A stretch of 64,000 nucleotides of DNA from Mycolicibacterium porcinum (GTDB taxonomy: Bacteria; Actinomycetota; Actinomycetes; Mycobacteriales; Mycobacteriaceae). The notes under the pieces are model-generated. The model was given only the letters and a program-made list of their open reading frames with translations. It did no database searches and was not told where the DNA came from. The stretch spans positions 62,001 through 126,000 of the forward strand of contig MVIG01000011.1 in assembly GCA_002086835.1 (NCBI GenBank), read 5' to 3'. This document shows positions 35,349 through 54,509 of the stretch, piece after piece (positions within the stretch are counted from its first letter, which is position 1; each line of letters opens with the position of its first letter). The translations under genes and the position numbers were made by a program.

Positions 35349-35380
35349 AGCGTGACATTCTCAAGAGAATCTGTAAAGCT
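35349..35380. promoter_or_regulatory. Regulon dyad, site A
   Basis: AGCGTGACA (35349-35357), 14 bp, TGTAAAGCT (35372-35380). It lies between the divergent hypothetical/thioesterase genes and the DUF427 gene. Sequence and spacing match four other sites in the island. Confidence 0.7.
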
Positions 35381-35476
35381 TCTATCTGGACGCAACTGCC
35401 GGTCGAAACACCGGCGCCCCTGCGTCCCGCAGACGCGCCCGCGTCCCGGCCCATCAGCCAAATTGGAGGTGCTGCA

Positions 35477-36184
35477 ATGAGTCTCGTCGCAGGCCGGGGT
35501 CCGTTGAGTACACAACCGGCCGGTTGGTTCACTCCACCGCTGGCTGCGGGCACGGTCTACATCGAGCCTCACCCCCGCCGCATCCAGGCATTCCGCGGTG
35601 GTAGCGCACTGCTCGACACCGAACACGCCCTGATGGTGCACCGTGCGGGCCACCCGCTCAGTTACGCGTTCCCCGCCGATGAGCTCGGCGACCTGCCGCA
35701 CGAGCCGGTCACCGAAGCGCCGGGATACGCCGCGGTGCCATGGGCTGCCGTCGATTCGTGGTTCGAAGAGGGTCGCAAGCTGGTGCACTACCCGCCCAAC
35801 CCCTACCACCGGGTCGACTGCCGCCCGACCCGCCGCGGCTTGCGGGTGAGCGCCGCCGACACCGTTCTGGTCGACACCGACGAGACCGTGATCGTCTTCG
35901 AAACGGCCTTGGAGCCGCGGCTCTACGTCGATCCCGGCCGTGTCCGCACCGATCTCCTTCAGCCGAGTGAGACCACGTCATACTGCAACTACAAGGGCAC
36001 CGCCAGCTACTGGTCGGCGGTAATCGGCGACACCGTCATCACCGACGTGGCGTGGAGCTACCCCGACACCCCGCCCGAGTCCCTGCCCATCCAGGGGCTG
36101 CTCAGCTTCGACGCGACACGCGTGGACGTGCTTGCCGAACTCCCCTCGTCCGGGACGTCGGCCGCGTGCGGTTGCGAACTCTGA
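35477..36184 (+). CDS. DUF427 domain protein (tandem halves)
   Basis: A 235-residue protein with two DUF427-like halves. The first covers about residues 30-75 (HPRRIQAFRGGSALLDTEHAL) and the second about 110-215 (RGLRVSAADTVLVDTDETVIVFE, then TTSYCNYKGTASYWS, the most conserved DUF427 motif). DUF427 is a small beta fold of unknown function, frequent near catabolic and P450 genes in actinobacteria. The ATG at 35477 has GGAGGT upstream. It is downstream of site A and likely co-expressed with the following SRPBCC gene. Confidence 0.85.
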   Translation: MSLVAGRGPLSTQPAGWFTPPLAAGTVYIEPHPRRIQAFRGGSALLDTEHALMVHRAGHPLSYAFPADELGDLPHEPVTEAPGYAAVPWAAVDSWFEEGRKLVHYPPNPYHRVDCRPTRRGLRVSAADTVLVDTDETVIVFETALEPRLYVDPGRVRTDLLQPSETTSYCNYKGTASYWSAVIGDTVITDVAWSYPDTPPESLPIQGLLSFDATRVDVLAELPSSGTSAACGCEL

Positions 36185-36212
36185 CCCGCAAAACCGAGGA
36201 AAGCGAACACCA

Positions 36213-36701
36213 TTGGGCATCGTCACCACCAGTTCCGAGACCGCATTCACCCAGTCGGCCGAGGAGGTCTACGACTTCGTCACCAATCCGGCGAACTGGG
36301 TGAAGACCTATCCGGGCAGCGCGCATATCGGCGGACTGCCCGAGCGGCTACCGCTGCAGGTCGGTGACACCTGGACCGAGGCCGGCCCCGACGGCGGACA
36401 GATCTACACCTGGCACCTGGCGATCGCCATGCGCCCGCGCATGTGGATGTTCAATTCGGTGGGCCGGCTCGGACACGACCGCGACGGAAACGGCGGCATG
36501 GAAGGCCGCATCACCGTGCAGTACCAGTTCACCCGTCCGGGCAACGACATCACGCTGTTCAGCCGCACGATGACGATCGAGGCCTACAAGGATTCACCGC
36601 TGCCCGACGCATTGTTCCGCGTGGTCAATCCGGCCAACATCGACAAGTACCACGCCGCGGTGGCCAGAGAGTTGGGCCGCGAATCAGGCGGCCGCGGCTG
36701 A
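36213..36701 (+). CDS. SRPBCC-family (START/Bet v1-like) protein
   Basis: A 162-residue protein of the polyketide-cyclase/SRPBCC fold, which binds hydrophobic ligands. It opens with the usual pattern TTSSETAFTQSAEEVYDFVTNPANW, quoted here as SAEEVYDFVTNPANWVK, followed by strands and a C-terminal long helix (NIDKYHAAVARELG). I chose the TTG at 36213, which follows GAGGAA by a suitable distance; a frame open from 36132 overlaps the DUF427 gene. Probable hydrophobic-ligand binder or steroid/terpenoid-related enzyme of the island. Confidence 0.78.
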   Translation: MGIVTTSSETAFTQSAEEVYDFVTNPANWVKTYPGSAHIGGLPERLPLQVGDTWTEAGPDGGQIYTWHLAIAMRPRMWMFNSVGRLGHDRDGNGGMEGRITVQYQFTRPGNDITLFSRTMTIEAYKDSPLPDALFRVVNPANIDKYHAAVARELGRESGGRG

Positions 36702-36741
36702 GCCGCGAATCAAGCCAGCGCGGCTGAGCCGCGAATCAAGC
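36694..36741. repeat. Tandem 26-bp duplication at gene ends
   Basis: GCGGCTGAGCCGCGAATCAAGC occurs at 36694-36715 and 36720-36741 (given here as a 22-bp unit with 26-bp period; key parts GCGGCTGA and CGCGAATCAAGC). The first copy contains the SRPBCC stop codon and the second the stop codon of the opposite MinD-like gene. It appears to be a recent slippage duplication. Confidence 0.6.
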
Positions 36742-38170: not shown

Positions 38171-39094
38171 TCAACCGTGCAGCGCACGGCGCAGCGCCGC
38201 GCCCTGGAGCGCAAAAAGTTGCTGACTGACCTCCCACTCCGGCACCAGCGAATCGAAACCGTGGCACGTCCCGGGAAACAGATGCAGTTCTGTGGCAATG
38301 CCCTCGGCCAGCAGCCGGCGGGCGTAGTCGAGCGCCTCGTCACGCAGTGGATCGAGTTCCGAGCAGGTGATCAGTGCCGGCGCCACCCCGGTCAGCCCGG
38401 CGGCGCGGGCGGGGACGGCCGCCTCTGGTACGTCCCGGCCGCCGGCATAGTGCCGCCACATCGCGACGGTTGCCGGACCGTCGACTCCCGGGGTGTCGGC
38501 GAACTCCGCCTTCGACGGGGTGGGCCGGTCGTCGAGCGCCGGCTGGTGCAGCGCCTGGAACACGACCGGTGGTGCGGAACCGGCCGCGGCATGCTGCGCC
38601 AGTAGCGCGGCCAGTGCGCCGCCTGCGCTGTTGCCGGCCACCGCGATGCGGCCCGGGTCGATGTCGAGCTCACCGGCCAGCGTGGCGGCCCAGTTGAGCA
38701 CCACCATCGCGTCGTCGAAGGCGGCCGGGTACGGATACTCGGGCGCCAACCGGTAATCCATCGAGATCACCGTGCACCGGGCCCGTCGGGCCAATTCCAC
38801 GCACTGGATCTGGTCGGTGTCCAGGTTGCCCAGCACGAAGGCACCCGAGTGGCAGTAGACCACCGCAGGCGACGGCGACGGCCCACCGCGGTAGATCCGG
38901 ACCGCGATGGTGCGTCGTCCGAGCGCCACGCGGGCCCCGACGATCTCCACCCCGGGCGTGTCCAGGACCTGCGCGGCGTCCCGGCGACGCTGATCCAGCG
39001 AGGTACGCACCACACCCAGCTGATCGGTGGACAGGTCGGTGCGGGCCTCGGCAAACCCATGCAATCCGGGGTCGAGGCGCTCCAGCCAGGCCAT
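38171..39094 (-). CDS. HSL-family alpha/beta hydrolase (esterase)
   Basis: A 307-residue hormone-sensitive-lipase-type esterase. The oxyanion motif, usually HGGG, reads CHSGAF; the nucleophile is in VAGNSAGGALA; catalytic Asp and His are in CSELDPLRDEA and CHGFDSL. YRLAPEYPYPAAFDD is characteristic of the family. It is the last gene of a seven-gene minus-strand operon, 3 bp after the Baeyer-Villiger-type monooxygenase, whose ester or lactone product it probably hydrolyses. The 196 bp before the MinD-like gene hold no gene. Confidence 0.9.
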   Translation of the reverse strand: MAWLERLDPGLHGFAEARTDLSTDQLGVVRTSLDQRRRDAAQVLDTPGVEIVGARVALGRRTIAVRIYRGGPSPSPAVVYCHSGAFVLGNLDTDQIQCVELARRARCTVISMDYRLAPEYPYPAAFDDAMVVLNWAATLAGELDIDPGRIAVAGNSAGGALAALLAQHAAAGSAPPVVFQALHQPALDDRPTPSKAEFADTPGVDGPATVAMWRHYAGGRDVPEAAVPARAAGLTGVAPALITCSELDPLRDEALDYARRLLAEGIATELHLFPGTCHGFDSLVPEWEVSQQLFALQGAALRRALHG

Positions 39095-39097
39095 GGC

Positions 39098-40618
39098 TCA
39101 GCCGTCCGTCCGATCGGCGGCCGCGGTGACCCGGGCCGGGTAGTTGGTGGGCGGTTCGAAAGTGTAGTCCGCCGGGCGGAACCGTCGGGTCATCGACCAG
39201 AAGGCGCGAGCACTACGCGGCCATTGGGTGACCACCCGGCCGCTCGGTGCCCGGAAGTAGCTGCTGCACCTCGTCAGCCACACCGTGCCCTGCATCCACC
39301 GGTCGATGTCGGCGAGAAACGCGGCCATGGTGCTCGGGCGCACCGCCACATAGGACTTGCGTTTGCGCCGAAGGTGTTTCAGCGCCCGCACCACGTAGCG
39401 GGCCTGGGCCTCCAGGATGAAGATGACGCTGTTGGAGCCGACGTTGGTGTTGGGTCCGTAGAGCATGAAGAAGTTGGGGAAGCCCGGCACCGCCATGCCG
39501 AGATAGGCGAATGCCCCGTCTCTCCAGGTGTCGTGCAACGAGACCCCGTTTTCGCCGGTCACTTCGATCTGCCCCAGGTAATCGGCGGCGGCGTAGCCGG
39601 TGGCGCACACCACCACGTCGACGTCGAGTTCCCGGCCGTCCGCGGTGACCAGTGACCGGGCCCGCAGCGCACGGGCCGGGCTGGACACCACCTCGACATT
39701 GGGACGGGTCAGGGTTGCGATGAAATCCGGCGAGAACACCAGCCGCTTGCATCCCAGTGGATGGTCTGGGGTGAGTCGGGCTCTCAGTTCCTCATCGGCC
39801 ACAGTGGATTCGAGGAGGTCGAGCGCGAGTGCCTTGAACTCCTGGGTCTTGTCGCTGCCGTTCTCGATGACGGCGATGTTGGACTCACTACGCAGCCAGA
39901 GCCGGGTCCGGTAGATCTTCTTCGCGAGCGGCACGTGGGCGAACAGCCAGCGTTCCCGCTCGGTGTACGGACGGTCGGGTTTCGGCAGCACCCAGGTTGG
40001 CGAGCGCTGCACCGAGTACACCTTCTCCGCGACCTTCGCGATTTCCGGAACCACTTGGGAGGCAGTCGATCCCGTGCCGAGGACGGCAACGCGCGCACCC
40101 TCGAGGTCGACGTCGTGATCCCAGTTCGCGGTGTGCATGAGGGTGCCGGCGAACGGCTCCTCGGCCGTCAGGTCCGGTTGCAGCGGTTGGGTGAACAGGC
40201 CGATCGCGGAGACCACGACATCGAAGCGATGTTGTGCCCCGGCCCCGGTGGTCAGTATCCAGTTGCCGGCGTCGGCATCCCATCGCGCCGCCGTGATCTC
40301 GGTGTTCAGCTGTAGGTGCGGCCCCAGCCGATAGCGTTCGGCGCACCGCTCGAAGTACTCCAAGATCTCCGGCTGCCCGGCCCACAACCGGCTCCAGTCG
40401 GGGTTGAGGTCGAACGAGTAGGAGTACAGGTGCGACTTCACGTCGCAGGCCAGGCCGGGGTAGGTGTTGATCCGCCAGGTTCCACCGACCCCGTCCTCGC
40501 GGTCGAAGATGGTGAACTCGTCGAAACCTGCCTTCTTCAGGAAGATTCCGAGGGCCAGGCCGCCCGGCCCGGCTCCGATGATCCCTACTGACAGTTTTGA
40601 ACTGGACACCTGAGTCAT
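39098..40618 (-). CDS. Baeyer-Villiger-type flavin monooxygenase
   Basis: A 506-residue FAD/NADPH monooxygenase. The first Rossmann motif is GAGPGGLALG, the second GTGSTASQ, and between them lies the Baeyer-Villiger fingerprint FAGTLMHTANWDHD (F-x-G-x3-H-x3-W-D/P). It inserts oxygen next to a ketone, giving an ester or lactone. The ATG at 40618 forms an ATGA overlap with the SDR stop; 40633 is an alternative. The adjacent dehydrogenases can supply the ketone and the next gene can hydrolyse the ester. Confidence 0.9.
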   Translation of the reverse strand: MTQVSSSKLSVGIIGAGPGGLALGIFLKKAGFDEFTIFDREDGVGGTWRINTYPGLACDVKSHLYSYSFDLNPDWSRLWAGQPEILEYFERCAERYRLGPHLQLNTEITAARWDADAGNWILTTGAGAQHRFDVVVSAIGLFTQPLQPDLTAEEPFAGTLMHTANWDHDVDLEGARVAVLGTGSTASQVVPEIAKVAEKVYSVQRSPTWVLPKPDRPYTERERWLFAHVPLAKKIYRTRLWLRSESNIAVIENGSDKTQEFKALALDLLESTVADEELRARLTPDHPLGCKRLVFSPDFIATLTRPNVEVVSSPARALRARSLVTADGRELDVDVVVCATGYAAADYLGQIEVTGENGVSLHDTWRDGAFAYLGMAVPGFPNFFMLYGPNTNVGSNSVIFILEAQARYVVRALKHLRRKRKSYVAVRPSTMAAFLADIDRWMQGTVWLTRCSSYFRAPSGRVVTQWPRSARAFWSMTRRFRPADYTFEPPTNYPARVTAAADRTDG

Positions 40619-41358
40619 CCGATCTGCAGACATTGGCCGCCGTCCACGAGGAGTTCGGAGCCGGTGATGAACGCGGCCTGGTTCGACAGCAGAAACGCCA
40701 CGGCATCCGCGATCTCGGTCGGCTTGCCCAACCGGCCCAGGGTGGCGCGGTCGACCAGCCGGGCCTGGGTCGACTCGTCGAGCATCGGTGTCTCGACGGG
40801 ACCGGGGAACACCGCGTTGACCCGGATGCCGTCACGGCCCAGTTCGGCCGCCGCCAATTGAGTGAGCCCGCGCAGTGCCCACTTCGACGACCCGTAGGCC
40901 GCGTGATGCGGGAACGGACGCACCGCGCCGGTGCTGCACGTGTTCACCACCGCGGCACCGTCGGCCTGACGCAGCGGCTCAAGGGCAGCCTGTAGGCCGA
41001 GGAACGGCCCCAGACAGTTGACCCGCCAGGAGCCTTCGAACCCAGCCGGCGTTTCCTCGGCGATCGACGCCCGGTGCAGCACACCGGCATTGTTGACCAA
41101 TGCGTTGAGCCCACCGAACCGGCTCACCGTTGCCTGCACCGCGGCCTGCCACTGTTCGGCCGAGGTCACATCCAGCGGCACGGCAATCACCTGGTCGCCG
41201 AATTCAGTTGTGCTGGATGCCAGTTCGTCAGCCAACAGATCTGCGGCCGTCACCCGGTAGCCGTCGGCCACCAGCCGGCGGACGATGGCCGCGCCCTGGC
41301 CGCGCGCGGCGCCGGTCACCAGTGCAACGCGGCTGCCCGGCTCTGTTCCTGCGTTCAG
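40615..41358 (-). CDS. SDR-family oxidoreductase with apparent CTG start
   Basis: A short-chain dehydrogenase with cofactor motif TGAARGQG, NNAG, the Ser motif NTCSTGAV and the catalytic pair in YGSSKWALRG. The only ATG/GTG/TTG candidate upstream of the core is a GTG at 41319, which falls inside the first strand (VALVTG). In-frame CTG at 41358 overlaps the aldolase stop (CTGA) and sits 6 nt after a GAGGAGG ribosome-binding site, giving 247 residues with a complete Rossmann strand. I therefore annotate the CTG. Likely function: alcohol to ketone oxidation before the monooxygenase. Confidence 0.8.
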   Translation of the reverse strand: MNAGTEPGSRVALVTGAARGQGAAIVRRLVADGYRVTAADLLADELASSTTEFGDQVIAVPLDVTSAEQWQAAVQATVSRFGGLNALVNNAGVLHRASIAEETPAGFEGSWRVNCLGPFLGLQAALEPLRQADGAAVVNTCSTGAVRPFPHHAAYGSSKWALRGLTQLAAAELGRDGIRVNAVFPGPVETPMLDESTQARLVDRATLGRLGKPTEIADAVAFLLSNQAAFITGSELLVDGGQCLQIG

Positions 41359-42137
41359 TTGTATCCTCCTCGTTCGGTGCCGGTCGCGTTTCCGGTTGCC
41401 TCGGCGAGGTGCTCGGCCGCACCGCGGCGCAAGGCCTGGGATTCCGACGCCAGCGTGATCATCTGGAAACCCAAGTCGGACCCCATTTTTCCGAGTTTCC
41501 CCGCGCCGGCATGGATTCCCGCTACCAGTCCCGCCGCGCGGGCAGCGTCATGAACCTTGACCATCGCCGCCCGCACCCCGGGGTGTGTCCACGCGTCGGA
41601 GGGTTGGTGTCCCATCGAGATGGCGAGATCGGCCGGGCCGACGTAGATCCCGGCCAGGCCGGGCACCGCACAGATCTCGTCGGCAGCAGCCAGGCCCCGC
41701 GCCGTCTCGATCATCGCGAACACACTCACCCGGGCCTCCAGCGCGGCGGTGTCGTGCCCCAGGCTCGACCGCAGCGGTCCGAAGCTGCGGATGCCTGCCG
41801 GGGCGTACCGCGTGGCCGCCACCGCGGCGGCGGCCTGCGCGGCGGATTCCACCATGGCGATGATCACCGCATCGGCGCCCGCGTCGAGCACCCTGCCGAT
41901 CGGTGCGGGGTCCGCCGAGGGCAGCCGCACCGCGGTGGCGATCGGCACGTGCTCGAGCCGCCGGATCAGCAGTGCCACGTCGGCATCATCGAGATATCCA
42001 TGCTGGACGTCGAATCCGACGTAGTGGTATCCGGCCGCCGCGAACTCCTCGGGACCGAGGATCGTCGGGCCGACCACCCAGCCGCCCCAGACCTGCACGT
42101 TGGCGGCCAGCGCATCCTGCAGCCTGCTCGGGTTCAT
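41355..42137 (-). CDS. HpcH/HpaI-family aldolase (citrate lyase type)
   Basis: A 260-residue TIM-barrel aldolase of the HpcH/HpaI class, which cleaves 2-oxo-4-hydroxy acids. Visible motifs are GFDVQHGYLDD (His base region), ATAVRLPS (Arg), FAMIETARGL (metal Glu) and GIYVGPADLAISMG (metal Asp). It overlaps the upstream MDR dehydrogenase by 4 nt (ATGA) and the following SDR by a CTGA. In the operon it could release pyruvate or a similar oxo acid. Confidence 0.88.
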   Translation of the reverse strand: MNPSRLQDALAANVQVWGGWVVGPTILGPEEFAAAGYHYVGFDVQHGYLDDADVALLIRRLEHVPIATAVRLPSADPAPIGRVLDAGADAVIIAMVESAAQAAAAVAATRYAPAGIRSFGPLRSSLGHDTAALEARVSVFAMIETARGLAAADEICAVPGLAGIYVGPADLAISMGHQPSDAWTHPGVRAAMVKVHDAARAAGLVAGIHAGAGKLGKMGSDLGFQMITLASESQALRRGAAEHLAEATGNATGTERGGYN

Positions 42138-43102
42138 CGGGCGATCGCGATCTTGATCCGCTCGGGTACCGGGCGGCAGGCCAGCTCGAACGCCGCCGGC
42201 ACGTCGTCCGGTCCGAAGGTGTGGGTGACATAGCCGGGCAACAAGTGCGGATGTTCCCGCGCGAACTCGTCGGCTCGGCGCAGCACACGCTGACGGTCGA
42301 GCGTGACACCGGATTTCAGGGTGAGGTTGTTCCGCAGCATGGTGCGCATGCTGATCGGATAGCTGTCGTCATCGGGTACGCCGAAATAGAACACCGTGCC
42401 GCCGAAGGCCGCGGCCTCCAACGCGTGGTTGAGCGTGGCGACCTGGTGCCCGACCGCCTCGATGACCACATCAGGCTTACCGTCTGGCCCCAGGTGCCTG
42501 ACCCAGCGGTCGCTCGTGGCCCGGACCGCGTGGTCGACGCCGAAGCGGGTGCTCACCGAAGACCGGTCCACCGGGTCTACCCCGGTCACCCACTTGGCGC
42601 CGAAAGCCTTTGCCACATAGCAGAACAGCAACCCGATCGAGCCCTGCCCGATGACAGCCACGTGACGACCTGTCAGGTCCGGCAGTTGCTCGACGGCGTA
42701 CAGGACACATGCCAGTGGTTGCAGGCCCACCGCCAGTTCAGGGGTCAGCGCAGGGTCAAAGGGCACCAGCCCGGAGCCGTCGGCGATCACGCGGCCCATG
42801 AGACCGTCGAACCCCGACGCCCACCCCACCACCCGCTCCCCCGGCCGGTGGTCCGGATGACCGCTGGCCAATACCTCGCCCACGATCTCGTGGATCGGGA
42901 AGCCGTTCATCTCCGCAGCACAGCATCCGGTGTCCCCCGGCAGTTTTCCCTGAGTACCTCGGAATCCGGGCAGGTCGCTACCGCAGATCCCGGCGGCCAG
43001 GAAGTCGAGCAGCACCTGTCCGTCGGCCAACGATTCCGGCGAAGGTTCTGAAACCTCTTGCCGCTCAAAAGTGTACGGCGCAACGAGCCGATATGACCAC
43101 AC
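42134..43102 (-). CDS. Zinc-type MDR alcohol dehydrogenase lacking structural zinc
   Basis: A 322-residue medium-chain dehydrogenase. The catalytic zinc site is suggested by GICGSDL and IHEIVGEV; the cofactor motif is VIGQGSIG, and VTGVDPVD gives an acidic residue for NAD(H). The four-Cys structural zinc lobe is absent, as in some shorter members. The GTG or ATG start region at 43102 is coupled to the P450 gene (1-bp gap). It probably oxidises a hydroxylated intermediate. Confidence 0.87.
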   Translation of the reverse strand: MWSYRLVAPYTFERQEVSEPSPESLADGQVLLDFLAAGICGSDLPGFRGTQGKLPGDTGCCAAEMNGFPIHEIVGEVLASGHPDHRPGERVVGWASGFDGLMGRVIADGSGLVPFDPALTPELAVGLQPLACVLYAVEQLPDLTGRHVAVIGQGSIGLLFCYVAKAFGAKWVTGVDPVDRSSVSTRFGVDHAVRATSDRWVRHLGPDGKPDVVIEAVGHQVATLNHALEAAAFGGTVFYFGVPDDDSYPISMRTMLRNNLTLKSGVTLDRQRVLRRADEFAREHPHLLPGYVTHTFGPDDVPAAFELACRPVPERIKIAIAR

Positions 43103-44340: not shown

Positions 44341-45045
44341 CTACTTCAGTGGCGACGGCGGCAGTGCCGAAAGGATCGAATCCTCCCAGCCGTCGCGCAG
44401 TGCGGGTGCCACACTCATCCAGGTGACGATCTCCGCGGGCGGGTTGCCCTTCCACGACGGGTAGTGGTTCTCGAAGCAGTCCCAGTCGTCGTCGAGCGCC
44501 CAGTAATGGATCACCTCGTTGAATCGGAAGGTCGTGATGAACGAGCCCAGCCAGCGCTTGCCCGTGCTCTCCGACCACGGCACATACAGTCGCTCGAGCT
44601 CCCGGATGTAGTCGTCCTGGCGCCCGGGCTTGGTCTCCATGATCTCCTGGATCACCAGGCCGGCACCGAATTTCGCTTCTCGCAACTGCGCGAGCGTCCG
44701 GTTGTACTTGCCGGCGTACATGATTCGGCCCTCACCGCGAGCCCCGACCTCGGAGAGATAGGCCGCCCATTGCAGGGCGGGTTTCTCATGACTGCCGCCG
44801 ACGGCCTGCGCCTTGCCGATCCGGGCGTAGTCCGCGAATGCGTCGATCTCCCAGACGATCGTCACCTGCGGCCAGTGCCCGTTGTAGGGCGTGGTTTCCC
44901 AGATCGAGAACAGACGGGCGCCTAGGTCCTCCATCATCGGCTGGTAGACCTCACCGAAGATCTCTGTGAACCGATCGGTGCGACCCGACCCCAGGTCGAT
45001 CGTCTCGTGCAGATAGAGCAGCGTGTGGCCGTAGAACTTCTTCAT
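44341..45045 (-). CDS. NIPSNAP-like dimeric alpha/beta-barrel protein
   Basis: A 234-residue protein resembling a tandem ferredoxin-like (dimeric alpha/beta barrel) NIPSNAP protein. Strand-helix units such as YLHETIDLGSGRTDRFTEIF and VIQEIMETKPGRQDDYIREL are visible, with tryptophan-rich strands (FSIWETTPYNGHWPQVTIVWE). Its function is unknown; such proteins accompany P450 and steroid/terpenoid genes. It is the first gene of the seven-gene operon and the regulon dyad lies 37 bp upstream. Confidence 0.7.
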   Translation of the reverse strand: MKKFYGHTLLYLHETIDLGSGRTDRFTEIFGEVYQPMMEDLGARLFSIWETTPYNGHWPQVTIVWEIDAFADYARIGKAQAVGGSHEKPALQWAAYLSEVGARGEGRIMYAGKYNRTLAQLREAKFGAGLVIQEIMETKPGRQDDYIRELERLYVPWSESTGKRWLGSFITTFRFNEVIHYWALDDDWDCFENHYPSWKGNPPAEIVTWMSVAPALRDGWEDSILSALPPSPLK

Positions 45046-45997: not shown

Positions 45998-46819
45998 ATG
46001 TCTGACTCTTACTACGAACTGATCGACGAGAACGACGCGATCGGCGAAAAGTTCCGGGCCACCGATATGGCGCGGGGCACCTGGTCGGCGGCGATCCAGC
46101 ACGGCGCGCCGGTGTCGGCGTTGCTGGTGCGGGCATTGGAACGCTGCGAGCACCGCGCCGACACCCGGTTGAGCCGGGTGGCGATCGATCTGACGGGCGG
46201 GGTGCCCTCCGAGGGCGACCTGTGGGTGCGGGCGCAACTGGAACGGCCGGGCAAGCAGATCGAACTGGTCAGCGCCGAAATGCTGGCGCTCGGACCCGAT
46301 GGCGAGCCCAGGGTGGTGGCGCGCGCCGGCGGTTGGCGCATGCTGCAACTGGACACCACCGCGGTCGCGCACAGTGGTGTCGAGCCGCTCCCCCCACTCG
46401 AGCAGGCGCGCAGCCGCGACATGGCCAAGAACTGGGAGCCCAACTACGTGCACAGCGTGGATTGGCGTTGGCTGACGGTGCCGCAGGCGCCCGGCCCCGG
46501 CGAGTCGTGGCTCAAGCCGACGGTCGATGTGGTCAAGGGCGAATCGATGACGCCGTTGCAGCGGTTGTTCGCAGTCGCCGACGACGCCAACGGGATCGGC
46601 TCCAAGATCGACATCCGCAAGTGGACATTCCTCAACACCGATCTGGTGGTGCACATTCACCGGGTGCCCGACGGGGAGTGGGTCGGCATCCGCGCCGACA
46701 CCCACTACGGACCTGACGGCATCGGTGCCACGGTGGGGACGCTGTTCGATCAGAGCGGTGCAGTGGGGGCGATCCAGCAGTCGGTGCTGGTACGCCCGCG
46801 TCCCCCCAAGATTACTTAG
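45998..46819 (+). CDS. Thioesterase-family protein (TesB-like double hotdog)
   Basis: A 273-residue acyl-CoA thioesterase-like protein. The N-terminal hotdog has HGAPVSALLVRALERCEH and RVAIDLTGGVP; the C-terminal hotdog ends with GEWVGIRADTHYGPDGIGATVGTLFDQSG. This is the form seen in mycobacterial proteins acting on large acyl-CoA. It is 9 bp after the SMP-30 gene. The substrate may be a CoA ester of the ring-cleavage product. Confidence 0.83.
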   Translation: MSDSYYELIDENDAIGEKFRATDMARGTWSAAIQHGAPVSALLVRALERCEHRADTRLSRVAIDLTGGVPSEGDLWVRAQLERPGKQIELVSAEMLALGPDGEPRVVARAGGWRMLQLDTTAVAHSGVEPLPPLEQARSRDMAKNWEPNYVHSVDWRWLTVPQAPGPGESWLKPTVDVVKGESMTPLQRLFAVADDANGIGSKIDIRKWTFLNTDLVVHIHRVPDGEWVGIRADTHYGPDGIGATVGTLFDQSGAVGAIQQSVLVRPRPPKIT

Positions 46820-47290: not shown

Positions 47291-48547
47291 CTATGCGATG
47301 TGCGCGGGCACGCGCTTGATGCCGTGCACAAAACTGCTGTACAACAGTTCGGGCTCGCCGAATTCGACGGTCTTCAGCCGGGTCAGCAACTCGCGGAACA
47401 GGTGACGTAACTCGGTCTTGGCCAGCTGGTTGCCGAGACAGAAATGCGGACCGCCACCACCGAACCCGACCTGGGGGTTGGGCGAACGGCTCAGATCGAA
47501 ACACTGCGGGTCGGTGAACACCGACTCGTCCCGGTTGCCCGAGCAGTAGAACAGCCCGACCTTGTCGCCGGCCCTGATCTGCTGACCGGCCAGCTCGACG
47601 TCCTCGGTGGCGTGCCGTGCGAACTGGATCACCGGCGTTGCCCACCGCACGAACTCCTCGGTGGCCAGGCCGATCCGGTTATCGAAATCCTCCAGCAGCC
47701 AATCCTTTTGGTCCGGGTTGGCGGCCAGCGCCATCATCGCGTGGGTGGTGGTCTGCTTGGTGGTGTCGTTGCCCGCGGAGGCCAGCAGGATCAGGAATGC
47801 CCCGATCTCCTCGTCGGTCAGCCGGTGGCCGTCCACCTCGGCGTTGACGATGCTGGTCATCAGGTCGTCACCGGGGTTGGCCCGGCGGAACTTGGCCAGC
47901 TCCACCCCCGTGCTCGAGATCAGCATGATCTCGTTGATGGTGGCCATGGCGCGCTCCTCGAGCGACGAGTATTCGTCATCGCTCATGCTGAACAACTTCT
48001 CGGCGGCCTTGGCCAGGGCCGGCTGATCAGCAGGGGGTACACCGAGCATGTCCGAGATGGTGCGCATAGGCAGCTGCGCCGAGCAGGCTTCGACGAAGTC
48101 GACGTCTCCGGCACCGATCAAGTCATCGACGACGGCGACGGCGTTGCGGTGAATCTGCTCTTCGATCCTGCGCACATTGCGCGGGGTGAACGCCGAGCTG
48201 ATCAGGCGCCGGTAGGTGGTGTGCTCGGGCGGATCCATCATCAGGAAGAAGGTGGCGAACTTCTGCACGTCGGCGGGCATCGGATCCAGCGCAACGCCCT
48301 GAGTGGAGGTGAACAGCTCGGGATGCTGGCTGACGAACTGGATGTCGGCACGGCGGGTGACCGCCCAGAATCCGGGCTCTTCGACGTCGAACAGAGTCGA
48401 CAGCGGCTCGTGCCAACTCAAGCCTTCACCGGCGCGTAGCCGTGCGAACGTCTCGTCACGCTCAACGAACGACCGACTCCAGAAATCGTGCGACGTGATG
48501 TCGAATTGGCTGTATTCGCGTGCCTGCGGCGAGCTGGCAACTGTCAC
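47291..48547 (-). CDS. Cytochrome P450 (second of two)
   Basis: A 418-residue P450. The heme loop is FGGGGPHFCLG, the I-helix motif is SAGNDTT and the K-helix ExxR is in EEFVRWA. The start is a GTG at 48547 with an excellent AGGAGGG ribosome-binding site; a longer open frame to 49093 overlaps the divergent tetR gene. The linked ferredoxin gene makes this a self-contained redox pair apart from the reductase. The sequence is of the class that includes sterol/alkyl-chain hydroxylases of mycobacteria, but a specific family is not claimed. Confidence 0.92.
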   Translation of the reverse strand: MTVASSPQAREYSQFDITSHDFWSRSFVERDETFARLRAGEGLSWHEPLSTLFDVEEPGFWAVTRRADIQFVSQHPELFTSTQGVALDPMPADVQKFATFFLMMDPPEHTTYRRLISSAFTPRNVRRIEEQIHRNAVAVVDDLIGAGDVDFVEACSAQLPMRTISDMLGVPPADQPALAKAAEKLFSMSDDEYSSLEERAMATINEIMLISSTGVELAKFRRANPGDDLMTSIVNAEVDGHRLTDEEIGAFLILLASAGNDTTKQTTTHAMMALAANPDQKDWLLEDFDNRIGLATEEFVRWATPVIQFARHATEDVELAGQQIRAGDKVGLFYCSGNRDESVFTDPQCFDLSRSPNPQVGFGGGGPHFCLGNQLAKTELRHLFRELLTRLKTVEFGEPELLYSSFVHGIKRVPAHIA

Positions 48548-48596
48548 GGTGTTCCCTCCTGCACGGGCGTCCGACAACGGTGTCGCGCCCCGAATT

Positions 48597-48628
48597 AGCG
48601 TGACAGTTCGCCGATAGTTTGTAAAGCT
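48597..48628. promoter_or_regulatory. Regulon dyad, site C
   Basis: AGCGTGACA (48597-48605), 14 bp, TGTAAAGCT (48620-48628). It is between the divergent P450-2 gene and the first tetR paralogue and ends directly before the GTG at 48629. Confidence 0.72.
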
Positions 48629-49168
48629 GTGGGCATGGCGGAAATCGCGTCCATCGCTGACGACGGCACTACCCGTGGACGGATCCTGGCCGCCACCGCA
48701 GAGGTGCTCGGCGCCAATGGGATGACCAAACTCAGCCTGTCCGAGGTCGCTGTGCAGGCCGGAGTGTCCCGTCCCACGCTCTACCGCTGGTTCGCCTCCA
48801 AGCAAGAACTGCTCGATGCGTTCGTGGTATGGGAGCGCAAGTACTACGAACAGGCCGTGGCAGCCGCGTCCGCCGACCTGCCCGACGACGAACACCTCGA
48901 TGCCGCACTGCGCACCGTCGTCGAATACCAGCAGTCCTACCCGGGACTGAGGATGGTCGACATCGAACCCGAGCACGTCATCAAGCGGCTCGCCCAGGTG
49001 ATCCCGCTGATGCGGGAGCGCCTGCAACGCCTGACCACCGGACCGGATGCCGACGTCGCCGCGGCCACCGCGGTCCGGGTAGCCGTCTGCCACTACCTGG
49101 TACGCGGCGACGACGCGGACGATTTCCTCGCGCAGCTACGCCATGCGGCCGGGGTGAAACATCGTTGA
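48629..49168 (+). CDS. TetR-family regulator, paralogue 1
   Basis: A 179-residue TetR regulator. The helix-turn-helix is LSLSEVAVQAGVSRPTLYRWF (residues about 30-50), followed by KQELLDAF. The rest aligns without gaps with the second TetR at 53824 (shared YQQSY, VDIEP, VIPLM, FLAQLRHA). GTG 48629 or ATG 48635 may be the start. It is divergent from P450-2 across dyad C, so it is a good candidate for the regulator binding that dyad. A GH3 gene follows 36 bp downstream. Confidence 0.9.
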   Translation: MGMAEIASIADDGTTRGRILAATAEVLGANGMTKLSLSEVAVQAGVSRPTLYRWFASKQELLDAFVVWERKYYEQAVAAASADLPDDEHLDAALRTVVEYQQSYPGLRMVDIEPEHVIKRLAQVIPLMRERLQRLTTGPDADVAAATAVRVAVCHYLVRGDDADDFLAQLRHAAGVKHR

Positions 49169-49204: not shown

Positions 49205-51418
49205 GTGACCGACTCAGCTGATCTCATCGCCACGCTTGACCTGGCAGAACAGGCCGCGCTGGGCAGCGGCGCGAGCTTCTGGACCACCAAGGCGATCGGC
49301 CCCGTGCCGGCGATCGTACTGACCGACGGCCCGCACGGCGTGCGCAGGCAATCCGGCAGCGCCACAGATCATCTGGGCCTCGCGGGCAGTGAACCGGCGA
49401 CCTGCTTTCCGCCGGCGGTCGGACTCAGCCAGACCTGGGATCCCGAATTGGTGGAGCGGGTCGGCCAGGCACTCGGCGATGAAAGCCGGGCGCTGGGCGT
49501 GCACGTGCTGCTGGGGCCCGGGGTCAACATCAAGCGTGATCCGCGGTGCGGACGCAACTTCGAGTATTACTCGGAGGATCCGCTGTTGTCCGGGACGCTG
49601 GGCTCGGCGTGGGTCCGCGGGGTGCAGAGCCGCGGCGTCGGCGCGTCGCTCAAACATTTCGCGGCGAACAACGCCGAGCACGACCGGATGCGGGCCAGTT
49701 CTGACATCGACGCCCGCACCTTGCGTGAGATCTATCTGCGCACGTTCGAGATCGTGGTACGCCAGGCGCAGCCTTGGACGGTGATGTGTTCCTACAACCG
49801 GATCAACGGGGTCTACGCCTCGGAGAACGCCTGGCTGCTGACCACGGTACTGCGAGACGAATGGGGTTTCGACGGCCTGGTGGTCAGCGACTGGGGCGCG
49901 GTGGCAGACCGGGTCGCGGCGGTTGGCGCGGGCCTGGACCTGGAGATGCCGACAACCGGCGGCACCTCCGACACCGAGGTGGTGGAGGCGGTACGAGCTG
50001 GGCGCCTGGACGCGGATGCCGTCACGCGAGCCGCGGAGCGCATCGTTCGGCTGACCGAGCGGGTCACCGAAACAGACCGCACCGCAGCTTCATTCGACAC
50101 AGACGCACATCACCGGCTGGCACGCGAGGCGGCGCAGCGGGCCATCGTGCTGTTGAAGAACGACGGCGATGTACTACCGCTGGCGCCATCACCGCTCGCG
50201 GTCATCGGCGGCTTCGCCCAGGAGCCCAGATACCAGGGCGGCGGCAGTTCTCATGTGAATCCGACCCGCCTCGACATTCCGCTGGACGAGATCCGCAAGC
50301 TCGCGGGTGATCACCCGGTCAGCTACACCCCGGGGACCGATGTCGCGGCTGCGGTCGCCGTCGCCGAAACTGCCGAAGCCGCAATCGTATTCCTCGGACT
50401 CACTGCCGAGGAGGAATCCGAGGGCTACGACCGCGAGCACATCGACCTGCCCGCAAACCAACTCGAACTGTTGCGCGCGGTGGTGCAGGCCCAGCCCCGC
50501 ACCGTGGTGGTGCTGTCCCATGGCGGCGTGGTGCGCCTGCACGACGTCGCCGGGCTGGCCCCGGCCGTGGTGGATGGGGCCCTCCTGGGGCAGGCCGGGG
50601 GCGGCGCGCTGGCCGATGTGCTGTTCGGCGTCGTCAACCCGTCGGGTCGGCTGGCCGAGACGGTGCCGCTGCGGCTGCAGGATTGCCCGGCCTACCTCAA
50701 CTTTCCGTCCGAATCGGGCCGAACTCTGTACGGCGAGCGGATGTTCGTCGGCTACCGCTGGTACGACGCCCGGGACCTGCCGGTGGCGTTCCCGTTCGGC
50801 CACGGCCTGTCCTACACCCGGTTCGAGTACTCCGACTTGGTGGTCAATGCCGCCGACGAGGGGCTGTCGGTACGGCTGACGGTGACCAACACCGGCACCC
50901 GGTCGGGTCGCGAGGTGGTGCAGGTCTACGCCGAGCTGCCCGGGTCCAAGGTCGGGCGGCCGCTGCGCTGGCTGGCCGGTTTCAGCTCGGTTCCGGTGGC
51001 ACCGGGTGAGCAACGTGTCGTCGAGATCCCGTTCAGCCGAAGCGATCTCGCGTACTGGAACACAGCGGCCGGACGCTGGGCTGTCGAGTCCGGCGAGTAT
51101 GCCGTGTCGGTCGGTGCTTCGAGCCGAGACCTGCGGCTGACGACGACGGTGACGGTCGCAGGCGACGAGCCGACGCAACCCTTCACCCGCGATTCGACGC
51201 TCGGCGAGCTGTTGGCAGACCCGGTGGCGTCGCAGACGATCCTGACGATACTGAGTAGCGCTTCCCCGTTCGGCACAGCGGATTCCGCACTCGGCACCGA
51301 CCTGCTGCGGATGCTGGAATCGGTACCGATCGGGCGGATGGCCGCGTTCTCGGCGGGCCAGGTCAGCCGCGAGCAGCTCGATGAACTGCTCGCGGGCATC
51401 AACGCTCAGCGGTCCTGA
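49205..51418 (+). CDS. GH3-family beta-glycosidase (BglX type)
   Basis: A 737-residue glycoside hydrolase family 3 enzyme. The TIM-barrel domain has LTDGPHGVR, NIKRDPRCGRNFEYYSEDP, the conserved SLKHFAANNAEHDR and the nucleophile Asp229 in GLVVSDWG. An alpha/beta sandwich domain and a C-terminal fibronectin-III-like domain follow (LPGSKVGRPLRWLAGF). No signal peptide is seen, so it is probably cytoplasmic. It may release the aglycone of a plant glycoside for this pathway. Start: GTG at 49205. Its 3' end overlaps the opposite CoA-transferase gene by 13 bp. Confidence 0.9.
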   Translation: MTDSADLIATLDLAEQAALGSGASFWTTKAIGPVPAIVLTDGPHGVRRQSGSATDHLGLAGSEPATCFPPAVGLSQTWDPELVERVGQALGDESRALGVHVLLGPGVNIKRDPRCGRNFEYYSEDPLLSGTLGSAWVRGVQSRGVGASLKHFAANNAEHDRMRASSDIDARTLREIYLRTFEIVVRQAQPWTVMCSYNRINGVYASENAWLLTTVLRDEWGFDGLVVSDWGAVADRVAAVGAGLDLEMPTTGGTSDTEVVEAVRAGRLDADAVTRAAERIVRLTERVTETDRTAASFDTDAHHRLAREAAQRAIVLLKNDGDVLPLAPSPLAVIGGFAQEPRYQGGGSSHVNPTRLDIPLDEIRKLAGDHPVSYTPGTDVAAAVAVAETAEAAIVFLGLTAEEESEGYDREHIDLPANQLELLRAVVQAQPRTVVVLSHGGVVRLHDVAGLAPAVVDGALLGQAGGGALADVLFGVVNPSGRLAETVPLRLQDCPAYLNFPSESGRTLYGERMFVGYRWYDARDLPVAFPFGHGLSYTRFEYSDLVVNAADEGLSVRLTVTNTGTRSGREVVQVYAELPGSKVGRPLRWLAGFSSVPVAPGEQRVVEIPFSRSDLAYWNTAAGRWAVESGEYAVSVGASSRDLRLTTTVTVAGDEPTQPFTRDSTLGELLADPVASQTILTILSSASPFGTADSALGTDLLRMLESVPIGRMAAFSAGQVSREQLDELLAGINAQRS

Positions 51419-52584
51419 CCGCGCAATTCGTCCAGGATCTCGTCGGTGTGCGCGCCGAGCGCCGGGGCGACCATACGCGGCTGCCACGGAGTGGCCGAGA
51501 AATCGACCGGGCTGGCCACCATCGGCACCGTCGAAATCCCGTCGGGTACTTCGACAATGCCCCCTGCAGCGTGGAACTGCTCATCGGCGATCACATCGTC
51601 GAGGCTGTTGATCGGCGACCAGAAGAAGTCAGGCTCCTTGTCGAACAACGGAACCCAGTGCTCCATCGGATGGCCGGCGAAGATGGCATCGAGCTCGGCG
51701 ATCAGCTCGCGGGCATTGCGGTACCGGTCACGCGCGGTGGCGAAACGCGCGTCGGTCAGCCAGTCTTCGCGGTCCACCACCCGGCACAGCGCAGGCCAGT
51801 GCCGGTCTCCTTGCAGTCCGACGATCCAGAACCGTTTCCCGTCACCGGTCGTGTAGTTGTTCATGCACGGGTTGGCCATCGTCTCACGCTGTCCGATCGC
51901 GATCTGCTCCCCACTCATCAGCACGGTGTTGAGATCGAAGCTGACGGTATAGGCCCCCTGCCGGTAGAGCGAGGTGCTGACCAATTGACCGGCCCCGGTG
52001 CGGTTTCTGGCCAGCAGTGCGGCGCACACCGCGGCCGCCAGTGTCATCCCCGCCGAGTGGTCCCCCATCCCGCCGCGCTGGAACGGAGGGGTGTCTCCGG
52101 GCCGGGTGAGCAGATCGGCCAACCCGGCCCTGGCCCAGAACGCGGCGACGTCGTAGGCCGCGCGGTCGGCCTCCGGTCCGGTCAAGCCGTATCCGGTGAT
52201 CAACCCGTACACCAGGCGAGGATTGCGGGCCGCGACGGTCTCGAAGTCCAGTTCCAGTCGTCGCAGCGCGGCAGGCCGCACATTCGTCAGGAAAACGTCT
52301 GCGGTGGAGAGCAATTCGATCGCGGTTGCCCGGCCCTCGGCGGTCCCTAGGTCGAGCACGACACTGCGTTTGGACCGGTTGTCCATCTCGAAGGGCGGGT
52401 TGGCCGCCACGCCCAGGTCCGGATCCAGGCCGAGCATCCGGCCGAAGGTTCTCGCCGGATCGCCCGAGGGCGGCTCGATCTTGACGACGTCGGCTCCCCA
52501 GTCGGCCAGGAGTCCGCCTGCCGCCGGTGCGGCGACCCAGACGCCCAACTCGACGACCCGAAACCCCTCCAACGGACCTGCCAT
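51406..52584 (-). CDS. Family III CoA-transferase (CaiB/BaiF type)
   Basis: A 392-residue formyl-CoA-transferase-like enzyme that moves CoA between acids. Family motifs are VVELGVWVAAPAAG, LADWGADVVKIEPPSGDPAR, NRSKRSVVLDL and YDVAAFWARAG, where the Asp is the catalytic residue. The ATG at 52584 follows GGAAAGGAG; the frame open to 52749 extends into the divergent gene. It presumably activates a carboxylic acid intermediate in the island's pathway. Controlled from dyad D. Confidence 0.9.
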   Translation of the reverse strand: MAGPLEGFRVVELGVWVAAPAAGGLLADWGADVVKIEPPSGDPARTFGRMLGLDPDLGVAANPPFEMDNRSKRSVVLDLGTAEGRATAIELLSTADVFLTNVRPAALRRLELDFETVAARNPRLVYGLITGYGLTGPEADRAAYDVAAFWARAGLADLLTRPGDTPPFQRGGMGDHSAGMTLAAAVCAALLARNRTGAGQLVSTSLYRQGAYTVSFDLNTVLMSGEQIAIGQRETMANPCMNNYTTGDGKRFWIVGLQGDRHWPALCRVVDREDWLTDARFATARDRYRNARELIAELDAIFAGHPMEHWVPLFDKEPDFFWSPINSLDDVIADEQFHAAGGIVEVPDGISTVPMVASPVDFSATPWQPRMVAPALGAHTDEILDELRGQDR

Positions 52585-52603: not shown

Positions 52604-52635
52604 CGCTTTACAACCATCCGCAAATTTGTAAACTT
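52604..52635. promoter_or_regulatory. Regulon dyad, site D
   Basis: CGCTTTACA (52604-52612), 14 bp, TGTAAACTT (52627-52635). This is the most symmetrical of the five sites (TTTACA-N14-TGTAAA). It lies between the divergent CoA-transferase and kinase-like genes and ends 5 bp before the ATG at 52641. Confidence 0.72.
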
Positions 52636-52640
52636 GGCCA

Positions 52641-53780
52641 ATGCTCTCACCGGCCCGCCGCCTCGTCCCCGTCGCCGGCCTGGCCGCACACATCGGCCAC
52701 GGGGTGCAACGTATCGCAACGGATGCGGCCATCGGGCGTCTGCGCGCAATACCCCGTCGCATCGGCGACCTCGACTCGGCGTACCTGTCCGGGCTGATCG
52801 GGCGCGAGGTCGCGTCGGCGTCGGTGGTCGGCGGCGACGCGGGCACGTCGTCCCGCGCGCGGCTGGCGCTCTCAGGTGCCGACGTACCGGAATCGGTCTT
52901 CGTCAAGATGCCCGCCGAGACAGCCGCCACCCGGATGATGGGCGAGTTGGGCCGGCTGGGCCACACCGAGGTCCGTTTCTACCAACAACTGGCCGCAGGC
53001 CTACCGGGTGTTCCGCGGGCCTACGGCGCGGCCTTCGACGCCCTCACCGGGCGTTACGTGCTAGTGCTGGAGGACCTGGCGCTGAGCCCCTGCGAATTCC
53101 CGGACACCCTGCACCCGTTGGACAAGGACCGTGCGGCGGCAACAGTTGAGCTGCTGGCCCGGGTGCACGCGGCCTTCTGGGGCAAGCTACCGGCCGGCAG
53201 CGGCAGCGGGCCGCTGGGCTGGCTGTACTCGGCGTCAGGCGATCACACGTCGTTGATGACCGGCGCCCTGCTCAAGCTGTCGACCAAGCGACTTGCCGAG
53301 AACACCGACATCCCGGTGGCCGACGGCCGGTTCATCGACGAGAACTACCGCGCGGCGGCCCAGCTGCTGGACCGCCCGCCGCACACGGTGATGCATGGTG
53401 ATGCGCATCCGGGCAATCTGTTCTTCCGCAACGGCGAGGCGGGCCTGCTCGACTGGCAGGCTGTCCGCCGCGGCCATCCGGGCCGCGAGCTGGCATACAC
53501 CCTGGTCACCTGCATGACCACGGCTGACCGGCAGTCCGCCGAGCGGGGCCTGCTCGATGAGTACCGGCGCGCACTGGCCGCGGCCGGCGGGCCGAACCTC
53601 GATCACGACGAGTTGTGGGAGCGCTATCGCCTGGGTGCGATCTATGCGTACGCCGCACCCGTGATCACCGCCGGGATGGGCGGTATGCAGGACGAAGGCA
53701 TCGCACTGGAGGGCGCGAGACGGGGCGTGGCGGCTTTGGCCGACCTGGAGACTGTGGCGATACTCAAGAAGTTGCTGTGA
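52641..53780 (+). CDS. APH/choline-kinase-fold phosphotransferase
   Basis: A 379-residue protein with the aminoglycoside-phosphotransferase fold. The catalytic loop is HGDAHPGNLFF and the DFG-equivalent is LLDWQ; an N-terminal lobe Lys (VFVKMPAE) is present. Such proteins in actinobacterial catabolic loci phosphorylate hydroxylated substrates or have unassigned roles; antibiotic resistance is unlikely. It is followed after 43 bp by the second tetR paralogue and is under dyad D. Confidence 0.83.
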   Translation: MLSPARRLVPVAGLAAHIGHGVQRIATDAAIGRLRAIPRRIGDLDSAYLSGLIGREVASASVVGGDAGTSSRARLALSGADVPESVFVKMPAETAATRMMGELGRLGHTEVRFYQQLAAGLPGVPRAYGAAFDALTGRYVLVLEDLALSPCEFPDTLHPLDKDRAAATVELLARVHAAFWGKLPAGSGSGPLGWLYSASGDHTSLMTGALLKLSTKRLAENTDIPVADGRFIDENYRAAAQLLDRPPHTVMHGDAHPGNLFFRNGEAGLLDWQAVRRGHPGRELAYTLVTCMTTADRQSAERGLLDEYRRALAAAGGPNLDHDELWERYRLGAIYAYAAPVITAGMGGMQDEGIALEGARRGVAALADLETVAILKKLL

Positions 53781-53823
53781 TGGTCCTACCATTTGGTGAA
53801 CCACGATCAACCAAGGCCTGGAC

Positions 53824-54381
53824 GTGAATGAACCTGTACCCGCGCAGCGGGAAGCATCAGTCGAAGACACCTCGACCCGCCACCGAATCCTGGTGGCGAC
53901 AGCCGAGGTGCTGGCCCGCAGCGGCCAGACCAAGCTGAGCCTCTCCGAGGTGGCGCTGCAGGCCGGGGTCTCCCGGCCCACGCTGTACCGCTGGTTTGCC
54001 GACAAACAGGAACTTCTCGACGCGTTCGGCACCTACGAGCGCGAGATGTTCGACCACGGCATCAGCCGCGCCACCGTCGGCCTGCGCGGCACCGAGAAGC
54101 TCGATGCCGCACTGCGTTTCATCGTGCAGTACCAGCAGTCATATTCCGGGGTCCGGCTGGTCGACATCGAGCCCGAAGTCGTCATCGCCCAGTTGGCCAA
54201 CGTGATACCGCTGATGCGGGCCCGCCTGCTCAAACTCCTGTCGGGCGCCAACGCCCCGGTCAAGGCCGCCACCGCGATCCGGGTCGCGGTCTCGCACTAC
54301 ATCGTGCGCAGCGATGACGGTGATCAATTCCTGGCGCAACTGCGCCACGCCGTCGGCATCAAGCAGCCCGACACCAACTGA
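53824..54381 (+). CDS. TetR-family regulator, paralogue 2
   Basis: A 185-residue TetR regulator with helix-turn-helix LSLSEVALQAGVSRPTLYRWF, practically identical in the recognition helix to the first paralogue (48629). Ligand-domain sequence diverges more (GTYEREMFDHGISRATV), suggesting the same operator but a different or altered ligand. Start GTG at 53824. It lies between the kinase-like gene and the aldehyde dehydrogenase gene; there is no dyad of the shared type directly in front of it, so it is probably transcribed from site D. Confidence 0.9.
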   Translation: MNEPVPAQREASVEDTSTRHRILVATAEVLARSGQTKLSLSEVALQAGVSRPTLYRWFADKQELLDAFGTYEREMFDHGISRATVGLRGTEKLDAALRFIVQYQQSYSGVRLVDIEPEVVIAQLANVIPLMRARLLKLLSGANAPVKAATAIRVAVSHYIVRSDDGDQFLAQLRHAVGIKQPDTN

Positions 54382-54477
54382 TCTTCCACTGAAATTTCGT
54401 CCGTCCGCACCTCCTGACGTCGCCAACAAGACTCTACGATCGCAGAGACTTATCGATCGGTCAATCCTTTCTTCAAA

Positions 54478-54509
54478 GGGGTGACACGACACGCATTTTT
54501 TGTAAAGCT
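54478..54509. promoter_or_regulatory. Regulon dyad, site E
   Basis: GGGGTGACA (54478-54486), 14 bp, TGTAAAGCT (54501-54509), upstream of the aldehyde dehydrogenase ATG at 54517. It is the only site between co-directional genes. Confidence 0.7.

Follow-up and report, generated by a model that had tools for sequence, protein, structure and literature searches.

In mycobacteria, steroid regulons are controlled by the TetR proteins KstR and KstR2. The subject here is a dyad that occurs five times in a 64,000-nucleotide stretch of Mycolicibacterium porcinum (contig MVIG01000011.1, positions 62,001 to 126,000; the whole stretch is called the window), among genes for two paralogous TetR-family regulators, TetR1 and TetR2, and a set of catabolic enzymes. 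The dyad is very probably the operator of the TetR1/TetR2 clade and would lie over the core promoters of the catabolic gene set. It would thereby resemble the KstR and KstR2 systems as a TetR-controlled catabolic regulon of mycobacteria, but the regulators are different and, to our knowledge, the dyad does not resemble KstR sites.

Several other described systems share single properties with this locus. Motif X, a palindrome in strain VKM Ac-1817D, precedes 14 operons, 12 of which are upregulated more than 3-fold on phytosterol, and is assigned to the Rv0767c orthologue in the available part of its source (PMC6593523). It likewise defines an in silico TetR regulon with cytochrome P450s and dehydrogenases in a mycobacterium and stands at a tetR start; its regulator, however, is a different TetR with another recognition helix and another genomic place. 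The TetR operators that bind a dimer of dimers measure 28 bp for QacR, 31 bp for Ms6564, and 32 bp for CgmR, as given in the available text of PMC4150764. The present dyad resembles them in length (32 bp), in the TetR fold of the proposed regulator, and in a divergent and presumably autoregulated gene arrangement. It differs in that its arms lie 20 bp apart from center to center, its middle is poorly conserved, it covers divergent and often leaderless-looking starts, and binding by two dimers is a prediction here. In the bidirectional promoters of Escherichia coli, a -10 element is shared and the starts are most often 18 bp apart (PMC12825309, in the part available). One symmetric sequence would serve divergent transcription in both cases, but the start codons at the P450/tetR sites described here are most often about 44 bp apart, and the -35 and -10 boxes would superpose. 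Such promoters are said in the same text to be hardly studied, and the locus may offer a compact natural case of one repressor controlling divergent, apparently leaderless promoters. A literature search found no description of the dyad or its regulon, the logo of motif X being left uncompared.

The whole genome (G000, 6,960,672 bases) was scanned with the pattern KTKACA-N14-TGTAAA, and the reversed pattern served as the control. The dyad is present at six places, five in one island of the window (S1 to S5) and one on another contig, against none for the control.

35349..35380, + strand: S1, between the 222-amino-acid open reading frame and thioesterase gene (left) and the DUF427 gene (right); identical in the relative G020
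45082..45113, + strand: S2, between the operon of the NIPSNAP-like, P450, and Baeyer-Villiger monooxygenase genes (left) and the SMP-30 lactonase gene (right)
48597..48628, + strand: S3, between the gene of P450b (left) and tetR1 (right)
52604..52635, no strand assigned: S4, both core arms TTTACA, between the CoA-transferase gene (left) and the APH-type kinase gene (right)
54478..54509, + strand: S5, 3′ of tetR2 and 5′ of the aldehyde dehydrogenase gene
G000:C15:322623-322654 (pattern match C15:322626-322651): sixth dyad, upstream of an acyl-CoA dehydrogenase operon
45069..45074, + strand: extra half-site GTGACA, 16 bp upstream of the left arm of S2

An earlier, sequence-only reading of this DNA had reported S1 to S5, and all five sequences are present exactly where it placed them. 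Its cores are correct as well (GTGACA-N15-GTAAAG at S1, S2, S3, and S5; TTTACA-N15-GTAAAC at S4), as is the identical 14-bp spacing. The full 9-mer half-sites, which it took to be common to all five, are exact only at S1 and S3; relative to AGCKTKACA-N14-TGTAAAGCT, one mismatch is found in S2, two in S5, and three in S4. The layout also stands, with S1 to S4 between divergent genes (the left gene of S1 being the open reading frame without a Pfam match) and S5 5′ of the aldehyde dehydrogenase gene. No sixth copy had been noticed; the window itself holds only five places, but the genome contains the further one listed above. The dyad is not equally common outside the island or inside genes, a possibility that the reading had named as fatal to its proposal: the island accounts for five of the six places, and the remaining one stands at a gene start. 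If one mismatch is tolerated, the window still yields only the five places, or six strand matches with S4 counted on both strands; the expectation is 0.05, and none of 100 shuffled windows reaches six strand matches. An 18-base form with up to three mismatches adds four weak places in the genome, a number similar to that of the reversed control (3 + 2). The arrangement with an extra half-site 16 bp upstream recurs at 17 sites in relatives, all of them before SMP-30 genes, and suggests that a further subunit may be bound there. Separately, S1 contains an inner palindrome, ATTCTC-NN-GAGAAT (window 35357-35370), which is identical in G020.

The conservation of the dyad is visible in 76 loci from named relatives (1.37 Mb; the best kept of 302 tetR matches), the closest named tetR1 relatives belonging to Mycolicibacterium species such as M. 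septicum, M. peregrinum, M. setense, and M. senegalense. These loci contain 241 dyad sites and no match to the reversed pattern. When the spacer is varied from N4 to N30, N14 gives 241 matches, N13 none, N15 one, N16 none, N6 one (as does the reversed control), N30 17, and all others none; the N30 matches represent the extra half-site at the SMP-30 sites. The left arm of the 237 unique sites reads GTGACA in 181, TTTACA in 40, TTGACA in eight, and GTTACA in eight. Conservation extends beyond the searched positions to A (0.70), G (0.86), and C (0.83) on the left, to TT (0.92/0.89) before TGTAAA, and to G (0.82) and T (0.70) after it in the pattern G-C-T. The (c)TT 3′ of the left arm is also conserved outside the search mask, and the consensus is AGCGTGACA(c/t)TT-N8-(W)(A)(W)TTTGTAAAGCT. 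A gene start, called leniently within 300 bp, is present on at least one side of all 241 sites and on both sides of 189. The commonest pairs are those of S2 (NIPSNAP-like/SMP-30, 54 sites), S3 (P450/tetR, 51), and S4 (CoA-transferase/kinase, 38 and a further 8 in the other orientation), followed by the aldehyde dehydrogenase gene alone (25).

Both proposed regulators are encoded in the island beside dyad sites.

48629..49168, + strand: TetR1, TetR-family regulator and proposed dyad binder; likely start ATG 48635; Pfam TetR_N 2.4e-14; all-helical TetR fold model
53824..54381, + strand: TetR2, paralogue of TetR1; Pfam TetR_N 8.6e-12

TetR1 and TetR2 share 62-65% of their residues, and all 16 aligned TetR1/TetR2 proteins have the same recognition helix, VSRPTLYR. 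Both carry the TetR_N helix-turn-helix expected of the family, and the AlphaFold model of TetR1 (pLDDT 83.9) takes on the usual all-helical fold with nine helices, with TetR-like matches in the PDB up to a TM score of 0.68. Among the fold matches are FasR (6o6n, TM 0.67) and FadR (3whb, TM 0.60-0.63), which are acyl-CoA-responsive TetR regulators; the FasR entry is titled with C20-CoA. TetR1 differs from both in sequence, with only 22-23% identity to FasR and 16% to FadR. An exact dyad lies at most 150 bp upstream of tetR in 67 of the 76 loci. Random 170-bp windows of the same loci contain it in 46 of 1500 cases, as expected from the sites themselves.

The presence of the regulator also predicts the presence of the site. 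Across 148 congeneric genomes (a close tetR being defined by E below 1e-40), 118 carry tetR and a site, five tetR only, one a site only, and 24 neither (Fisher p = 1e-21, kinship ignored), so that a site is found in 118 of 123 genomes with tetR and in one of 25 without it. This supports the earlier proposal of one regulon with the TetR proteins as its likely regulators, and, for a catabolic gene set kept in most of the sampled congeneric genomes, it supplies a regulator, an operator, and targets that can be tested. Outside the genus, tetR homologues with E up to 1e-20 were found in three further genera of a 201-genome family sample. In G301 and G260, the dyad occurs once in the whole genome, some 20 bp 5′ of the sole tetR homologue. 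Five sites are present in each of G166 and G191, and in both genomes three of them precede orthologues of SMP-30/NIPSNAP, the APH kinase, or an island thioesterase, and five family genomes lacking TetR contain no dyad site. A third clade of TetR proteins, with 50-54% identity to TetR2, has a variant dyad, AGTGTGACATT-N8-GATGTAAAG or similar (L014 = L216, L026, L213, L215; L202), before its own gene in G007, G085, G090, and G081, and a second site about 1.4-1.5 kb away in four genomes. Its recognition helix is VSRPTLYR in three proteins and VSRPTVYR in one. On one contig of 139 kb (G049:C5; L209, L210), three TetR homologues occur together with three dyad sites, perhaps as a second regulon set.

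On the right-hand side of the dyad, potential start codons (ATG or GTG, each opening a frame of 80 codons or more) are concentrated 8-11 nt 3′ of TGTAAA (158 placements over 240 sites). For tetR, an ATG or GTG stands precisely 9 nt past the arm in 67 of 69 cases, and the called P450 start lies 8-10 nt beyond the opposite arm in at least 38 of 51 P450/tetR pairs. In the window, the right-hand ATG follows the arm by 11 nt for SMP-30, 9 nt for tetR1, 8 nt for the kinase, and 10 nt for the aldehyde dehydrogenase. If the ATG is taken as +1, GTGACA falls at -35..-30 and TGT-AAAGCT at -15..-7; GTGACA and TTTACA are each one change away from TTGACA. In the eight largest gene clusters, none of the 223 starts at a distance of up to 12 nt from the arm has a Shine-Dalgarno-like 4-mer before it, compared with 66 of the 145 more distant starts. 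This geometry suggests an operator that is laid over the core promoters of the genes, several of which appear to be leaderless. More tentatively, and with somewhat less than even probability, each 9-bp arm may act at once as a TetR half-site, the -35 box of one gene, and the extended -10 box of the divergent gene, in a 32-bp cassette that would switch two leaderless genes and stay with regulon genes outside the island, such as the acyl-CoA dehydrogenase gene.

The same box positions, the near-arm starts without a Shine-Dalgarno sequence, and the sites with gene starts on both sides also fit two superposed housekeeping promoters without any operator, the divergent orientation of the genes giving boxes that mirror one another. 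At one-sided sites, the outer left AGC is less often retained (0.46 vs 0.66), which speaks for part of this explanation, as do the outer right GCT, kept more at such sites (0.69 vs 0.33), and the left arm CTGACA that replaces the usual one at the aldehyde dehydrogenase sites of four loci. Promoters tolerate spacer changes, however, while the spacer here is in effect only N14, and housekeeping promoters would be expected genome-wide, yet the dyad has six places in 7 Mb. Furthermore, 24 of the 25 genomes without tetR have no site, the sole genomic site precedes tetR in two other genera, and the dyad also precedes genes with leaders and Shine-Dalgarno sequences. The inflexible spacer, the scarcity of the dyad, and its association with tetR make promoters alone an improbable explanation.

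If the dyad is a TetR operator, the following mechanism can be proposed. Without ligand, TetR would cover the core promoter and thus act as a repressor rather than an activator, probably as two dimers with one on each arm, a stoichiometry suggested by the 20 bp between the arm centers and the length of 32 bp. At many sites, the arms would form the -35 box and the extended -10 box of a gene whose ATG or GTG would also be the transcript start. Divergent sites would hold two promoters within the same 26-32 bp, so that binding of one repressor complex could shut down the two of them, and repression of tetR1 would be autogenous. Opening of the whole set might then follow once a pathway intermediate, perhaps an acyl-CoA, releases TetR; the set comprises the P450s, the Baeyer-Villiger monooxygenase, the lactonase, the aldehyde and alcohol dehydrogenases, the aldolase, the CoA-transferase, the kinase, the thioesterases, and the remote acyl-CoA dehydrogenase.

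A number of observations weigh against a TetR operator of this kind. Nine of the 76 named tetR loci have no exact dyad within 150 bp, two of them showing a diverged GTTACA-N14-TGCAAC there. The Fisher co-occurrence takes no account of phylogeny or of cases in which the entire island was lost. Five of the 123 tetR genomes have no strict site (G042, G063, G070, G078, and G084, of which G070 is 73% complete), and a relaxed search in them gave nothing convincing; conversely, the TetR-lacking genome G092 has one site. The genus-wide scan is noisy, with a reversed-control match in 32 of the 148 genomes and some listed sites that look unrelated to the regulon. In the family sample, G301 also has one reversed-control match, and three of the five TetR-lacking genomes have such matches too; G310 has no strict site and only a diverged dyad upstream of its tetR, and no dyad is present in the 2-3.5 kb of sequence covering the tetR loci in G166 and G191. 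The distant homologues L199 and L200 have no dyad either (a 3.5-kb locus was searched for L199, for which the VSRPTLYR helix was seen), so the helix alone does not predict a site. The symmetry of the dyad itself is partial: at 181 of 237 sites, the partner of TGTAAA is GTGACA, and the inner arm flanks are not complementary. The lack of Shine-Dalgarno sequences at near starts follows partly from the dyad occupying that DNA, and in the window the genes of the CoA-transferase (22 nt), the NIPSNAP-like protein (39 nt), P450b, and DUF427 start at a greater distance from it.

Some of these observations would also fit a dyad that is bound by another protein, with TetR1 and TetR2 merely traveling with the island. 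A LysR-type gene is located nearby (57630-58508), co-inheritance of the island could produce the co-occurrence, and some TetR homologues share the helix but have no dyad close by. Against this stand the site in the tetR promoter in 67 of 76 loci, the position of the only site in G301 and G260, and the TetR paralogue clade that has its own variant dyad before its gene, which leave another binder with a rather small probability.

The dyad might also be motif X itself, the published palindrome of the Rv0767c-type TetR G155_05115. According to the accessible part of PMC6593523, strain VKM Ac-1817D is a mycobacterium closely matching M. fortuitum, and the motif combines a TetR regulator with P450 and dehydrogenase targets in 14 operons. 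As far as the available parts of two further sources go, the Rv0767c motif is listed below the cut-off (PMC4482099) and Rv0767c sites are rich in GAC and GTC (PMC10312376). In the present genome, the Rv0768-type aldehyde dehydrogenase is encoded on contig C26 (945 bits, above the cut-off) and is not the island copy (605.6 bits). The tetR beside the C26 gene (TetR_N 9.7e-12) is taken to be the Rv0767c orthologue by its position, on an assumed M. tuberculosis gene order. It has a different recognition helix, VAPATAYT, and its locus contains no dyad-like sequence with fewer than six mismatches. An identity with motif X is therefore as unlikely as another binder, and motif X is treated as a different system, set apart by regulator, helix, and locus, with the logos not compared. 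At the start codon of this Rv0767c-type tetR, a GGACA-type palindrome (L249 3140-3170) is a possible different operator.

Least probable is recognition of the sequence, as a promoter, by a dedicated alternative sigma factor. The fixed spacing, the small target set, and an extracytoplasmic-function (ECF)-type sigma factor gene starting 66 nt from the sixth site in this genome (L006 886-1434, - strand) could be cited for it. However, the island genes that were examined showed none for a sigma factor, and in the relatives G020, G096, G087, and G049 no ECF gene was called beside the acyl-CoA dehydrogenase site. Nor would a sigma site have reason to form a dyad or to accompany tetR into further genera.

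The TetR operator remains the favored explanation, and its targets would extend beyond the island. The arm of the sixth site ends 9 nt before the ATG of the acyl-CoA dehydrogenase gene (Pfam Acyl-CoA_dh_M 5.3e-22), which is followed by an acyl-CoA thioesterase gene (4HBT_3C 3.9e-28). In G020, G096, G087, and G049, the acyl-CoA dehydrogenase gene is likewise preceded by the site, and three of these four genomes show the same 9-nt distance to the called start. In other species, this gene lies within 10-15 kb of tetR and also has the site. In G068, the site is at C4:107699-107724, the gene begins at 107734, and tetR is at 95788; in G081, the site is at C23:304269-304294, the gene ends at 304259 (- strand), and tetR is at 316317. 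The site is thus found with the gene at both kinds of place, near tetR and far off, which makes the acyl-CoA dehydrogenase a putative regulon member that keeps its site at two different genomic positions. Among the TetR-lacking genomes, a match to the gene is listed only for G137; at 67%, it lies in the range of second paralogues, and orthologues in such genomes were therefore dropped as a decisive test of the promoter alternative. The regulon is consequently not confined to the 19-kb island, as the sequence-only reading had it, since this separate operon carries the site. The linkage of the island genes into one unit, which that reading proposed, is supported as one regulon, with two corrections: the Baeyer-Villiger monooxygenase gene is part of the operon left of S2, and the gene 3′ of S5 encodes the aldehyde dehydrogenase. 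The genes of the island and its surroundings are as follows.

33813..34691, - strand: TesB-like acyl-CoA thioesterase (Pfam 4HBT_3C, Acyl_CoA_thio); start approximate
34679..35347, - strand: 222-amino-acid open reading frame left of S1, without a Pfam match; the actual start may lie deeper in the frame
35477..36184, + strand: DUF427 protein; leader and GGAGG before the ATG
36739-37974, - strand: CbiA/ParA-like ATPase, between the DUF427 and Baeyer-Villiger monooxygenase operons, without a dyad
38171..39094, - strand: alpha/beta hydrolase, operon left of S2
39098..40633, - strand: Baeyer-Villiger-type flavin monooxygenase, same operon; Pfam FMO-like; PDB sequence matches to cyclohexanone and steroid monooxygenases
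40615..41319, - strand: short-chain dehydrogenase, same operon
41355..42137, - strand: HpcH/HpaI-type aldolase, same operon
42134..43102, - strand: zinc-type alcohol dehydrogenase, same operon
43104..44336, - strand: cytochrome P450a, same operon
44341..45045, - strand: 234-amino-acid protein, weakly NIPSNAP-like (E 0.0036, below the Pfam cut-off), first gene left of S2; ATG-to-arm distance 39 nt
45116..45988, + strand: SMP-30/gluconolactonase-type lactonase, first gene right of S2; ATG 45122 or GTG 45116
45998..46819, + strand: acyl-CoA thioesterase
47291..48577, - strand: cytochrome P450b, left of S3; start approximate; P450 match on 47294-48565
49205..51418, + strand: glycoside hydrolase family 3, downstream of tetR1
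51406..52584, - strand: family III CoA-transferase, left of S4; ATG-to-arm distance 22 nt; Shine-Dalgarno-like GGAG in the leader
52641..53780, + strand: APH/ecdysteroid-kinase-like phosphotransferase, right of S4
54517..56001, + strand: aldehyde dehydrogenase, right of S5; Pfam Aldedh 2.5e-143
55998..56408, + strand: SnoaL-like protein, overlapping the aldehyde dehydrogenase stop; Pfam SnoaL_4 3e-29
57630-58508: LysR-type gene near the island

The combination of P450s, Baeyer-Villiger monooxygenase, lactonase, dehydrogenases, aldolase, CoA-transferase, kinase, thioesterases, glycoside hydrolase family 3, and SnoaL-like protein with the remote acyl-CoA dehydrogenase suggests the oxidative breakdown of a cyclic or branched compound via lactone and CoA intermediates. 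The gene pair Rv3167c/Rv3168 was considered as a counterpart and dropped; the kinase has no PDB sequence match at E <= 1e-10. A 632-amino-acid frame at 54510-56408 was likewise set aside in its N-terminal part, which is spurious, as the aldehyde dehydrogenase occupies the other frame.

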